This document shows, in pieces, positions 22,184 to 28,005 of a DNA stretch of 64,000 nucleotides (position 1 is the stretch's first letter; each line of letters starts with the position of its first letter). A model generated the notes under the pieces. It was not told the origin of the DNA, searched no databases, and worked only from the letters and a program-made list of their open reading frames with translations. The stretch is from Anaerotignum sp. (GTDB taxonomy: Bacteria > Bacillota > Clostridia > Lachnospirales > Anaerotignaceae). The DNA lies in assembly GCF_030625865.1 (NCBI RefSeq), contig NZ_DAOUQB010000001.1, positions 62,001 to 126,000 on the forward strand. The letters run 5' to 3'. The translations under genes were made by a program, and so were the position numbers.

Positions 22184-22876
22184 ATGGATAAAAAAATATT
22201 AATTGTAGATGACGAAAAAAATATTGTTGACATTATAGCGTTTAATTTAAAAAAGGAAGGCTACAAAATTTTAAAAGCTGGGGATGGAGCAGAAGGGGTT
22301 AAGCTTACCATGGAGGAAAACCCAGACTTGATCTTGCTGGACATTATGATGCCTAAAATGGACGGTTATGAGGCCTGCAAGAAAATAAGAGAAAAGAAAA
22401 ATACACCCATTATTATGCTTACAGCACGTGCGGAAGAAGTTGATAAGGTTCTGGGGCTTGAACTGGGGGCGGATGACTATGTTACAAAGCCTTTTAGTGT
22501 TAGAGAGCTGATGGCAAGAGTGAAAGCAAATTTACGCCGCCAAATTGTCCGGGAAGAACCGACGCAGGATGAGGCAGAGGGCTGTGTTTTTGGCAGGCTG
22601 AATGTGAATTTGGAAAGATACGAGGTTCGCAAGGATGGGCGGGTACTTGACTTAACTTTGCGTGAGTTTGAACTCTTAAAATTCCTTACCCAACAAAAGG
22701 GGCAAGTTTTTTCCCGAGAAATTCTTTTAGAGAAGGTTTGGGGATATGAGTATTTCGGGGATGTTCGTACGGTAGACGTTACGGTTCGCCGTTTGCGGGA
22801 GAAGCTGGAGGATGATCCGGGAAAGCCACAATATATCCTAACCAAAAGAGGCGTAGGCTATTATTTTGATTGTTAA
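22184..22876 (+). CDS. walR: response regulator WalR
   Basis: An OmpR/PhoB-family regulator of 230 residues, the usual WalR length. The receiver domain (1-120) has the acidic pair DDE near residue 9, phosphoacceptor D53 in [11 protein letters not shown], and the TAR...K switch ([12 protein letters not shown]). A winged-helix domain follows (about 135-230; [18 protein letters not shown]). WalRK controls cell-wall hydrolases and is usually essential in low-GC Gram-positives. Identity rests on the following walK, walH, walI and walJ. The ATG at 22184 follows GGGGGGCAG; upstream in-frame ATGs lack a site. Confidence 0.93.
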
Positions 22877-22887
22877 GGAAGACGGGG

Positions 22888-24675
22888 TTGGAGCCTTTGC
22901 GAAGTATTAAATGGAAGTTAATAATCATGTATCTTGGGCTTGTGCTGATTGTGATGATTGTCAGCGGTTCTTATATTTTGCTGAGCCTTAGAAATATAGA
23001 GATGGAAAAATCCAGGAGTCAGCTGGAATCATATGCAGAAAAGATTGAAGAACAAGTTATCCAAAATAATGACACAGAACATTTTCAGGATAAGATTCTT
23101 GGCGCAGATAGTAATGCCGTGGGGATTCAAGGTAATATTTTGGATGCCAAGGGCAATACCATTGCGTCTACTTCTGTGTTACAGGAGCCATATCCTGTTT
23201 ATACGGATCAGGCCATTATTGCCGCCATGAATGGAACTCCTTCTTTTTCCTCGGGGAAAAAGAGTACGGATTCCTTTGGACTATTGAAGGAATGGATGAG
23301 CTATGCAACGCCCATTCAAGGGACGGATGGTAATGTGTCTTATATCATCTATACCCGCCTGGATGCAGGAGATATGCGCACTAGTTTGGATGAGACAACG
23401 AAAACCATTATTATTGCAGTTGCCATTTCCTTGTTTTTAGCCATTATCATGGGCTATGTATTTGCCCAAACGTTGACAGGCCCTATCTTGGCGTTGACAA
23501 AGGGCGCAAAAAACATGGCTGAGGGAAATTTTGAGCAAAGCTTAAAAGTGCGAAGTTCTGATGAAATTGGACAGTTGACCAGTAGTTTTAATTATATGGC
23601 ATCTGAGTTGACTAAAAATATGTCAGAGATCTATCAGGAAAAGAACCGTTTGGAAATCTTGCTTCATAATATGAGTGATGGCGTCATTTCTTTCAATAAA
23701 GATGGTGGCTTTATGCTTGCCAACACAGCTGCAACGGAAATGCTGGAAGTTGATAAAATTGATATGGATTTTTCTACCTTTATCCGAAAGTATGACATAA
23801 ATTCCGGTGTATATTTGGATATGGGGAGTGAACCGTCTCAAAAAGTAACCTTCCCCGTTGGTAAGCAATACATTAATGCAACCTTTACCCCATATTACAA
23901 TGCGACAGGGCAAATTGAGGGCGTAGTTGTTGTACTGCAGGATATTACAGAGCAGAAGAAGTTGGATGATATGCGCAAAGAGTTTGTGGCCAATGTTTCC
24001 CATGAACTACGAACCCCTCTTACAACAGTGAAAAGTTATACGGAAACACTCATGGATGGCGCGATAGATGACAAAGAAATTGCCATGGAATTTTTAGGTA
24101 TTATTGATAGTGAGGCTGACCGAATGGCTTTCTTGGTTCGGGATTTGCTTCAGCTATCTCGATTTGATAATAAACAGGTGCATTTGGATATTTCGAAAAT
24201 CGAAATGAACGAATTTTTATGTTTAACAGTGAAGCAAAATAAAATTCATGCTGAGGCCAAAAGACAGCAGTTAACTTTTGAACCATACGCGGAACCGGTA
24301 GTGATACATGGGGATAGAGACCGAGTGGGTCAGGTTGTAAATAATATCGTTACAAATGCAATCAAATACAGCCTGGAACAGGCTTCCATTAAAATTTATA
24401 TTACGGAAGATGACACTTATTATAAAATTTCTGTAAAGGATACGGGTATGGGGATTGCACGTGAGGATTTGCCACGTATTTTTGAACGTTTTTACCGTGT
24501 GGATAAAGCCAGAAGCCGCGCCATGGGAGGTACGGGACTTGGGCTTGCCATCGCCAAAGAAATTATGGAAAGCCATGGAGGAAGGCTGATTGCAGAAAGT
24601 GAGTATGGAAAAGGGACAACCATGACCATGTGGTTTCCTAAAAAGTCACCTGAGCTACGCTATACAGAAGGATAA
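22888..24675 (+). CDS. walK: sensor histidine kinase WalK
   Basis: A 595-residue membrane kinase. TM1 at about 7-30, an extracellular PAS/Cache-like domain (about 31-170), TM2 about 172-195, HAMP about 196-248, cytoplasmic PAS about 255-360, HisKA with H372 in FVANVSHELRTPLTT, and HATPase (NNIVTNAIKYS, DTGMGI, GGTGLGLAIAKE). I choose the TTG at 22888 because AAGGAAG (22875-22881) is 6 bases upstream. An in-frame TTG at 22870 overlaps walR's end. The domain order equals that of Bacillus WalK. The gap to walR is 11 bases, so co-translation is expected. Confidence 0.94.
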   Translation: MEPLRSIKWKLIIMYLGLVLIVMIVSGSYILLSLRNIEMEKSRSQLESYAEKIEEQVIQNNDTEHFQDKILGADSNAVGIQGNILDAKGNTIASTSVLQEPYPVYTDQAIIAAMNGTPSFSSGKKSTDSFGLLKEWMSYATPIQGTDGNVSYIIYTRLDAGDMRTSLDETTKTIIIAVAISLFLAIIMGYVFAQTLTGPILALTKGAKNMAEGNFEQSLKVRSSDEIGQLTSSFNYMASELTKNMSEIYQEKNRLEILLHNMSDGVISFNKDGGFMLANTAATEMLEVDKIDMDFSTFIRKYDINSGVYLDMGSEPSQKVTFPVGKQYINATFTPYYNATGQIEGVVVVLQDITEQKKLDDMRKEFVANVSHELRTPLTTVKSYTETLMDGAIDDKEIAMEFLGIIDSEADRMAFLVRDLLQLSRFDNKQVHLDISKIEMNEFLCLTVKQNKIHAEAKRQQLTFEPYAEPVVIHGDRDRVGQVVNNIVTNAIKYSLEQASIKIYITEDDTYYKISVKDTGMGIAREDLPRIFERFYRVDKARSRAMGGTGLGLAIAKEIMESHGGRLIAESEYGKGTTMTMWFPKKSPELRYTEG

Positions 24676-24723
24676 CAATCGTATTTCTGCGAAAAAAACC
24701 GCTTATTTTGCAGTAGAAAAAGT

Positions 24724-24778
24724 TGTTATGAAACTGTAAGCCCGTTGTAACATGAATGTAATATTTCCAGTATATAAT
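24724..24778 (+). promoter_or_regulatory. array of four WalR-type half-sites plus promoter
   Basis: Four direct hexamers at exact 11-bp steps: TGTTAT (24724), TGTAAG (24735), TGTAAC (24746), TGTAAT (24757). Three fit the WalR half-site TGTWAH and the other differs at its last base. Spacing matches the TGTWAH-N5-TGTWAH rule. A perfect -10 TATAAT lies at 24773-24778. The last repeats cover the -35 region, which has no consensus of its own, as expected for a response-regulator-activated promoter. It drives the secreted Ig-like gene and, probably, walH and walI. Confidence 0.8.
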
Positions 24779-24825: not shown

Positions 24826-25287
24826 ATGAAACAGAGAAGCAAGAATTTTGTAGTATTTATGATTGCAATGATGCTTTCTTTTTCACCCGTTTGCGCCTTT
24901 GCTGATGAGATAAATAATCCGGCACCGTTTTCAATTACAAGTGGGCTGGGTTTTAACGAAGACGATCAGGATGTTACGTTTGATGATTCTCGTATGGTTT
25001 ATGGGGAGACTGCACCTTTTGCAGGTATTTCCGTGACTGTTTGCCGAATGGATTCGGAAGGAGTTATGTTTGAGGATTACAACGATACTTTGGAAGTAGG
25101 GTCTTTGGGCATTTTTAGTACGGTGCTTCCTCTAGAACTGGGAACCAATTATATCGAAATAACGGTTAACGGTGAGGACTATGAGGAGGAAACTTATTGC
25201 TATGAAGTGAAAAGAAAGCCTCAGGCAGTGAAGGAAGAACTAAAAAGCATGATTGCTTTACCTGGTTTAATGCCAAAATACGAATAA
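24826..25287 (+). CDS. secreted Ig-like beta-sandwich protein in the wal operon
   Basis: A 153-residue protein with a signal peptide: basic MKQRSK, hydrophobic core to about residue 24, and a likely cleavage after AFA. The mature part has the pattern of a single bacterial Ig-like or glucodextranase-B-like domain (MVYGETAPFAGISVTV ... GSLGIFSTVLPLELGTNYIEITV). A positive tail follows (KRKPQAVKEELK). It is not a usual wal-cluster member. GGAGGTG lies just before the ATG; an in-frame start at 24811 overlaps that site. It follows a WalR-type array. A role in sensing or binding the cell wall is inference. Confidence 0.75.
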   Translation: MKQRSKNFVVFMIAMMLSFSPVCAFADEINNPAPFSITSGLGFNEDDQDVTFDDSRMVYGETAPFAGISVTVCRMDSEGVMFEDYNDTLEVGSLGIFSTVLPLELGTNYIEITVNGEDYEEETYCYEVKRKPQAVKEELKSMIALPGLMPKYE

Positions 25288-25320
25288 AAAAATAAATTAT
25301 AGAAAAAGCGGTGGGATCAA

Positions 25321-26730
25321 ATGAAATTATACAAAATTACTAATTTTGTCATTGTTGCTTTGGTCATAGCTGCGGTTTATCAAACAGGAGAGTTATGGCT
25401 TGAGGGAACATCGAGTCATAACTTTTTTAATGTGCTGATGCAGGGAGAATCCCAAATAAGCAAAGAAGCAGATGGAAATGTTCTTTTGGCAACGCGCTAT
25501 GCTGTCGGGGAAGGAGAGGGAACTTTTTCTGTTTATTATCCTGATGAAACAGGAACCAGTAACCTTTTACACGAGGCAAACAGTGTTTTGAATGAAATTT
25601 TATCGGCGAAGGATAGCCAAGCAGAGTTTGTAACGGCCGATTGGAAAGAAATTCTTGCAAAACGTTGTATTGTAATGCAGTATGACTTTATGGTATCTGC
25701 AGATGAATATTTAAGTGATTACAAGCGGCTGAAAAATAACAATAAGATGGATTCTTTTGATTATATTACAATTATTCCCTCTAAGCGTCCAGGGGAAGAG
25801 AGTAAAGCTTTTTTTGTAAATTCCAAAACCAATGAAAGCCTATGTTATACTACAATAAAAAGTCAATCTGCGGCGGATTTTTATGAAAAACTTGTAACGG
25901 ACAAAAATACCATGACATATATTTCCACGGGGCAGAAAACAGGGGCATCCGTCATTTGGCGAAATCTATTTTTACCCCAATGGGCAGATTTACCGTATCA
26001 CTATAGCAGTTTACGTGAAGTTCCCGCTTTTGAGAAAGATGGGGTGGTGAGTCGTGTCAATATGGAAAGTACGGTGAAAGGATTTTTCCGAAACTTTTCT
26101 GTAGACTGGAGCACAAAGGACGAGAGCGGAGACTTTGTTTTTAGTGATGACCAAACAGTGATAAAATATTATCCGAAAATACGGGTTTTGGAGTATTACA
26201 GTTACGAAGCCTATGGGAATGATAAGAATAACACCAGTTTGCTAGAGGGATACCAAATCAGCTGTAATTTTTTGGAAAATGATTCCTCGTTGACTACGGA
26301 TATTTTTTTGGCGGATATTGAGACAAAGAGCAACGAAACAATATATTATTTTGACTATGCCGTGAACAATTTGCCTGTTAATCTTTCTGTGGCATTGCAG
26401 GAAAAAATCGGCAGCAAACATGCAATAACGGTAACCATTCGCAACCAAAGAGTTAAGAAATATCAGCGGTATGTGGTAAATTATGAAACTTCACCTGGAC
26501 AAGATATGGAGTTAGATGTTCAGTTTATTGATGCTTTGGATGAAGCCAATAAAACCTATCAAAAAACGGTGGAGGAAAAAGTTATTACTGATGTAAAAAA
26601 TATTTCTTTGGGCTATTACGTTGATCTTACAGGAAAGCAAGGATTAAAGTGGTTCGTCACACTATATGATTATTTATTTGTAACTGACACCCTAACAGAT
26701 CCCGTTGCTGAAGTGAACAATATTTCGTAG
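25321..26730 (+). CDS. walH: WalRK regulatory protein WalH (YycH family)
   Basis: A 469-residue protein with one N-terminal membrane anchor (FVIVALVIAAVYQTGELWL, about 8-27) and a long extracellular part, as in YycH. The position after walK and before walI is the family's standard order. In Bacillus YycH and YycI bind WalK in the membrane and hold its activity down. Sequence similarity to YycH is diffuse, so the name rests on topology, length and synteny. The ATG follows AGCGGTGGG. The stop lies 52 bases before walI. Confidence 0.8.
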   Translation: MKLYKITNFVIVALVIAAVYQTGELWLEGTSSHNFFNVLMQGESQISKEADGNVLLATRYAVGEGEGTFSVYYPDETGTSNLLHEANSVLNEILSAKDSQAEFVTADWKEILAKRCIVMQYDFMVSADEYLSDYKRLKNNNKMDSFDYITIIPSKRPGEESKAFFVNSKTNESLCYTTIKSQSAADFYEKLVTDKNTMTYISTGQKTGASVIWRNLFLPQWADLPYHYSSLREVPAFEKDGVVSRVNMESTVKGFFRNFSVDWSTKDESGDFVFSDDQTVIKYYPKIRVLEYYSYEAYGNDKNNTSLLEGYQISCNFLENDSSLTTDIFLADIETKSNETIYYFDYAVNNLPVNLSVALQEKIGSKHAITVTIRNQRVKKYQRYVVNYETSPGQDMELDVQFIDALDEANKTYQKTVEEKVITDVKNISLGYYVDLTGKQGLKWFVTLYDYLFVTDTLTDPVAEVNNIS

Positions 26731-26782
26731 GGAAATATTGTCGTTGAAAAAGAGGTTAGGTGCCGAAGAAAGGAGGCAGGTC

Positions 26783-27646
26783 ATGGAATGGGCAGGTGCT
26801 AAGCGCTTTGTAATTGTTTTGCTGCTTATCTTAAATATAATATTGGCTGGGTTAAATATCCAGCAAAAGCGGGATAACACCATGACTTCTGCCCAGGAAA
26901 AGGCGATTTTTGAAGTTTTGTCCCAAAATGGAATTACCTTATATACAGATTTAAATATTGATACAAAGCCTATGTATCGCTTGGAGGCAAAAGTTCCTTC
27001 TTACAGCAAGGAAGATTTGGAGGCTGCTATTTTTGATGGAGAAAAGACAAAAGTTTCTGTAGGTACAAAAACCGTCTATAAAACAGAGAATGAAATTCTT
27101 ACATTAGAGGGAGATAAAGGGACTTTTGTGGATAAAACCGTGGAAAAGGGTTTGATTAATTTAAACAAGGAGGCAGCAATAAAACTGGCAGAACACAAGA
27201 TGCAACAAATGGAACCGATTTTTGGGGAATATGAGCTTTGCTATTCTTTTAAAGAAGAAGATGGATGGCGGATTGATTTTTGCTCCATCTATAAAGACGA
27301 AGTTGTTTTTTCCAATCATTTTTCGTTTTTTGTGTCCGATCAAGGAATTTATCAGCTGGACTTTACATATTGCGAAATAACGGGAATGACCCAGGAAAAG
27401 AAAGAAATTTGCATGGAGGATGAAGCGTTAATGACTTTTATGCAGGAGTGGAATAAACGTGACAGCGCCGAAGATGCAGCAATACAGAAATTGGAGATTG
27501 GGTACGATTTAATGGAACAAGGTCAAGCAGTAATGGGAACGGGGTTATTTTTGGAACCATGTTATCGTATTTATCTTATGGAAGAAAGTGAGCCTTATCT
27601 GGTGAATGCTTACACTTGCCAAATCGTAAAAAAGGATGTAAAATAA
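26783..27646 (+). CDS. walI: WalRK regulatory protein WalI (YycI family)
   Basis: A 287-residue protein with the short YycI-type start, MEWAGAKRFVIVLLLILNI, one membrane helix at about 8-27 and an extracellular remainder. I use the ATG at 26783 because AGGAGG (26771-26776) is 6 bases before it. An in-frame TTG at 26738 would add an unlikely basic leader. In Bacillus WalI and WalH act together on WalK. Its C-terminal region is rich in charged beta-type segments (YPSYSKEDL-like and YLVNAYTCQIV end), consistent with the YycI fold. Confidence 0.8.
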   Translation: MEWAGAKRFVIVLLLILNIILAGLNIQQKRDNTMTSAQEKAIFEVLSQNGITLYTDLNIDTKPMYRLEAKVPSYSKEDLEAAIFDGEKTKVSVGTKTVYKTENEILTLEGDKGTFVDKTVEKGLINLNKEAAIKLAEHKMQQMEPIFGEYELCYSFKEEDGWRIDFCSIYKDEVVFSNHFSFFVSDQGIYQLDFTYCEITGMTQEKKEICMEDEALMTFMQEWNKRDSAEDAAIQKLEIGYDLMEQGQAVMGTGLFLEPCYRIYLMEESEPYLVNAYTCQIVKKDVK

Positions 27647-28005
27647 TCAATAACTTAACGGGCTTTGGGAAGCTTCCTGCTTTTTTAGACAGATATCTTT
27701 TTAAAAAGGATTGTGTAGGAGGACAAGCTTTAGAAGAAATACAACTTGTTGTAAAACGTTTTTCGTTATGTAAAACCATTTTGCCATTGGTCTTGATTAG
27801 AGGGGGATGCCCCTTTTTTCTTCTGTGCAACAGAAAGGCTGAATTTGAAGAGAAGGAAAAAAGACTTTTCTCAATTACTTTTTCATGATATAATTCGAAT
27901 GGCTGGGTCAACAAGAAAAAAATCGGTTGAAACAAAAAAAGAAAGCCCGGCTTTCGTGTACAAAGGGAATATCCTTTGGCAATTCATTGGAAGGATGAAC
28001 GTTTA
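27647..28005 (+). other. intergenic region with terminator and murA promoter
   Basis: A short stem AGGGG/CCCCT with a TTTTTT tail (27801-27819) can end the wal transcript. TATAAT at 27889-27894 is a probable -10 for murA, with only a T-rich -35. A 90-codon open frame at 27616-27888 overlaps walI and the terminator, and is unlikely to be a gene. Confidence 0.6.

Follow-up and report, generated by a model that had tools for sequence, protein, structure and literature searches.

A four-half-site WalR-type array at the promoter of a separable IgL-walH-walI unit recurs across the order of Anaerotignum

The window analyzed here, a 64,000-nucleotide stretch of Anaerotignum sp. DNA, carries a wal gene cluster in the order walR, walK, IgL, WalH-like gene, walI, murA, a walJ-like metallo-hydrolase gene, and rlmH. 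Between walK and the IgL gene lie four WalR-type half-sites followed by a -10 element (Table 1). The nearest named WalK is that of A. neopropionicum (90%).

Table 1 The array at 24724-24778 and the genes and features around it
Feature	Position	Strand	Basis or remark
walR, YycF family	22184..22876	+	Bit score 339.4, just under the cut-off of 340
walK	22870..24675	+	Profile matches
Half-site 1, TGTTAT, first half of the proposed upstream dimer site	24724..24729	+	T/G/T/W/A conserved in 33-34 of the 34 loci aligned
Half-site 2, TGTAAG, second half of the proposed upstream dimer site	24735..24740	+	G kept in 28 of 34, first base variable
Half-site 3, TGTAAC, first half of the proposed downstream dimer site	24746..24751	+	Column alignment of 34 loci
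Half-site 4, TGTAAT, second half of the proposed downstream dimer site	24757..24762	+	Start 16 bp before the -10; seventh-position A in 33 of 34
-10 element, TATAAT	24773..24778	+	Predicted transcription start at about 24784-24785
Gene of IgL, a secreted Ig-like protein of 153 aa, heading the regulated unit	24826..25287	+	Model pLDDT 84.7
walH-like, membrane-anchored protein, 469 aa	25321..26730	+	Position; weak YycH match of a relative
walI	26738..27646	+	PF09648 (YycI), E = 6.6e-10
Intrinsic terminator-like stem followed by a T-run, between walI and murA	27799..27818	+	Probable unit end

The WalH-like gene is named walH by its position, that is, by synteny with the YycI gene (PF09648). The WalH-like protein of the window has no match to the YycH profile PF07435, and the N-terminal 120 amino acids of a relative's WalH reach a sub-threshold E of 0.0056 against it. 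IgL has no match in Pfam or NCBIfam. Its model, built from a 39-sequence alignment, consists of a signal-peptide helix, a beta-sandwich, and a C-terminal helix, and a Foldseek search with this model returned only generic Ig-like and macroglobulin matches with TM of about 0.4-0.5. Of 196 genomes sampled from the order, 113 encode the protein, nearly always in a single copy.

The original prediction placed four hexamers and a TATAAT here, and re-reading the sequence confirmed all five at their predicted coordinates. The hexamers are TGTWAN words in exact 11-bp steps, and TATAAT starts 16 bp after the start of the last word. Their earlier description as TGTWAH half-sites holds for TGTTAT, TGTAAC, and TGTAAT but not for TGTAAG, which has G at position 6. 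A strict scan for TGTWAH-N5-TGTWAH, the direct repeat with a 5-bp spacer that WalR binds, matches the array only at the 24746/24757 pair; the 24724/24735 pair conforms to it except for the last-base G. TGTAAG fits the second half of TGTHH-N6-WGTNDD, the motif obtained by ChIP-seq for S. aureus WalR (PMC10746227). No -35 hexamer is recognizable 16-18 bp from the TATAAT at 24773-24778, and the promoter listing has no entry there. Just 5′ of the array, at 24676-24720, is an inverted-repeat-like element, TGC(G)AAAA...CCGCTTA...TTTTGCA, which is not terminator-like on the + strand and has similar counterparts in nearby Anaerotignum loci.

The genome-wide scan for the 11-bp array that the prediction had proposed was run. 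The array at 24724-24762 is the sole perfect four-fold match in the 2.75-Mb genome, where about 0.001 would be expected from base composition, and the next best site has two mismatches. Matches to two half-sites, on the other hand, number 36 against 40 for a control pattern, with no excess over chance. Because the genome is AT-rich and such matches stay at the control level, two-half-site pairs are uninformative. The four-fold array goes beyond chance; two-fold matches do not. The plain two-half-site scan was dropped as a regulon finder for want of enrichment over the control pattern, and two half-sites plus TATAAT with three mismatches, tried as another search pattern, also matched at the control level.

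Conservation was examined with an array score that includes the -10 and has a maximum of 26; 2000 shuffles peak at 21. In the region 3′ of walK from 50 relatives, 35 loci score 22-26 and 15 loci score 17 or less, and this split coincides with the presence of IgL directly after walK, which the high scorers have. Where walK runs straight into walH (L025, L031, L036, L041, L043, L045, and L049), the array and IgL are each found in 0 of 7 loci. Where IgL-walH is displaced from walK, the array is kept in six of seven cases (L147, L148, L149, L150, L153, and L156), the exception being G044 with no clear array. A further 60 genomes came from families of the order to which the window does not belong; 55 of them score at least 20, compared with 0.7% of shuffles. 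In total, the region upstream of IgL was readable in 105 genomes of the order, and the array is present in 98 of them: 37 with the cassette in place, six of the seven with a displaced cassette, and 55 of the 60 further genomes, while G043 lacks it. This figure counts genomes and not independent events. The exceptions group in a single family (f9), whose IgL is divergent.

In an alignment of 34 loci, the near-invariant columns are TGT.A (half-site 1),.GTAA(G) (half-site 2), TGTAAY (in both half-site 3 and half-site 4), and TATAAT. The spacers vary except for AA at offsets 8-9 (33-34 of 34), and A is found at the seventh position after half-sites 3 and 4 in 28/34 and 33/34, respectively. In the window and in those relatives that were tested, array scores upstream of walR are at the shuffle level and no WalR sites were found at its promoter. 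Because of this comparative evidence, namely conservation and co-movement with the cassette, the array is taken as a functional element. It is judged to be the promoter of a separable IgL-walH-walI unit that travels with the cassette, and not an autoregulatory element of walRK. What had been described as a promoter inside the wal operon is supported by the comparison as one serving IgL, walH, and walI, but it does not belong to the wal operon proper.

As measured on genome records, E. coli pstS shows the identical spacing of 11/11/11/16, and phoA shows 11/16; in relatives, the phase of the array to its -10 is the same as in the window. The 11-bp repeats stand in place of a -35, and the last half-site is 16 bp start-to-start from the -10, which is class II geometry. 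PhoB-activated promoters need strict spacing between the pho box and the core promoter (PMC10294691). WalR of the window matches the PhoB profile TIGR02154 with E of about 1e-68, close to the same subfamily. From the pstS-like spacing, the missing -35, the PhoB spacing rule, and the PhoB-like subfamily, we infer class II activation by two tandem WalR dimers as the best account of the geometry.

In this mechanism, two phosphorylated WalR dimers would bind head to tail, one to half-sites 1 and 2 and the other to half-sites 3 and 4. The downstream dimer would replace the -35 element and, like PhoB at pstS, hold RNA polymerase via sigma region 4, by which WalR~P would activate the IgL-walH-walI unit. 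The genes walR and walK themselves are outside the control of the array. We consider it likely that 24724-24778 is the promoter of this unit (24826-27646, with a terminator near 27800) and is activated by two WalR~P dimers. As for the earlier claim that WalR activates the Ig-like gene, walH, and walI, a WalR-type array does sit on their promoter, and the activating sign is suggested by the geometry.

The array could instead be a site of repression, where bound WalR blocks RNA polymerase at an otherwise weakly active promoter. In S. aureus, WalR positions between or downstream of the -35 and -10 go with repression (PMC10746227), and half-site 4 falls in this interval, ending 10 bp before the -10. 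However, there is no -35 here to be blocked, the array has the phase of the PhoB-activated pstS and phoA promoters, and half-sites strictly phased to the -10 across the order are what one would expect from an activator that contacts sigma, making repression rather unlikely. A chance match without function would agree with the chance-level number of two-half-site matches in the genome, but it is refuted by an array that is unique in the genome, conserved order-wide, and moving together with the cassette; we give it practically no weight.

The binder of the array is likely WalR, whose DNA-binding domain in the window carries the recognition helix of the solved WalR/VicR structures. The first half-site pair, TGTTATgaaacTGTAAG, resembles the VicR site TGTTATagaacTGTAAT that was footprinted at S. 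mutans gcrR (PMC4168254). The same genome encodes further OmpR-type regulators, among which the paralogous WalR-like regulator at G000:C47:54526 might bind instead of WalR, or share the site with it. Its recognition helix differs from that of WalR at few positions (DVHV for DVTV), and its kinase is full-length in nearly all tested array-bearing genomes. Co-occurrence does not separate WalR from the paralog, which is nearly universal in the same genomes. Nevertheless, the unit under the array encodes the accessory proteins of WalK, the half-site is the WalR consensus, the helix of WalR matches that of solved WalR/VicR domains, and no clear array lies upstream of the paralog, so we view a role of the paralog as improbable. 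A phosphate regulator of the PhoP/PhoB type would use the same promoter geometry, as PhoB-type regulators bind 11-bp direct repeats. Yet the pstS promoter of the same genome, a single and thus suggestive case, has TTTAAC repeats, a different half-site, which the phosphate regulator appears to use there; its use of the wal array is very improbable.

The system of the paralog (L166) is a second WalRK-like system with a near-identical recognition helix, nearly universal in the order, which adjoins comEA and is divergent from dacF, a D-alanyl-D-alanine carboxypeptidase gene. At pstS (L277, G000:C82), the last TTTAAC repeat is 16 bp before TATACT, which is the geometry of the wal array with the other half-site.

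Array-like sites recur in the genus 5′ of a small peptide gene (C16), a CAP-domain protein gene (C29), and genes of S-layer-like proteins (C79). At the C16 site (G000:C16:14376-14435, L127:2877-2936), six half-sites stand in 11-bp register ahead of the gene for a 59-aa peptide, exported or single-span. This gene sits between rplQ and an ECF-type transporter, and an array is at the same place in L139, L140, L141, and L145. The C79 proteins carry Cu_amine_oxidN1 domains, and their array is in reverse orientation. A reversed TGTAAY-N5-TGTAAT-N5-TGAAA lies about 280 bp upstream of each of two paralogous S-layer-like genes in L137 (G000:C79:15500-25500), and one of these genes has a TATAAT promoter between the array and the gene. 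Further array-like sites in the genome of the window are by a G5/3D protein (C60) and a SpoIID protein (C65). All these sites lie by envelope functions, as expected of WalR, and serve as regulon leads, not as proof.

We conceive that the output of the WalRK pathway could determine how much of its sensor-accessory complex is made, the complex comprising WalH, WalI, and the exported Ig-like partner. The fuller reading is an order-wide hard-wired loop where WalR~P, via a pstS-like double-dimer promoter, would activate IgL, WalH, and WalI, with IgL as a new extracellular partner of WalK; we hold the balance on it to be about even. The sign of the loop was predicted to be negative, a point that does not carry over as such, because the effect of WalH/WalI differs between species. 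They are inhibitors of WalK in B. subtilis (PMC7299342), and in S. aureus they are activating or neutral (PMC5013275, PMC4801191). Negative feedback would require that WalK is inhibited by WalH/WalI here too, as it is in B. subtilis.

If the loop is true, the level of this sensor complex is governed by the WalRK pathway itself. The array at the promoter of the helper genes suggests that WalRK, an essential control system of the cell wall, adjusts its own set point, and feedback on this controller becomes directly testable. The array also points to an uncharacterized exported partner, IgL, and offers a sharp promoter signature for finding WalR regulons in anaerobic gut Clostridia. In a search of mostly open-access papers, we found no description of accessory genes with a WalR-type promoter of their own that is conserved order-wide, and no literature on WalR in Lachnospiraceae.

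Compared with the WalR/VicR sites of B. subtilis, S. aureus, and S. mutans, the array shares the half-site sequence and the 11-bp repeat, and the seventh-position A of high-affinity VicR sites is kept after half-sites 3 and 4. Unlike known TGTWAH-N5-TGTWAH sites, it consists of two tandem pairs that share one register and keep a fixed phase to the -10, and its half-site 2 is conserved as NGTAAG. With E. coli pstS, where PhoB binds two tandem pho boxes, it shares four half-sites in 11-bp steps and the distance of 16 bp from the start of the last one to the -10; phoA is the two-half-site form with likewise 16 bp to the -10. In contrast to the window, however, the half-site of pstS is TGTCA rather than TGTWA, its regulator is PhoB rather than, probably, WalR, and it feeds phosphate uptake, whereas the array in the window feeds the accessory proteins of the sensor. 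The walRKHI(J) operons of Bacilli share walR-walK, then walH, walI, and later a walJ-like gene, which here comes after murA. The walK and walH genes of S. aureus share an 8-bp overlap, and a WalR site was not found at the promoter of that operon. The wal operons of B. subtilis, S. aureus, and C. difficile have been reported not to be autoregulated, from which order-wide WalR-type control of the accessory half alone appears to differ. The window departs from the Bacilli operons in that walK is separated from walH by an additional gene, for a secreted protein, and by a promoter of its own.
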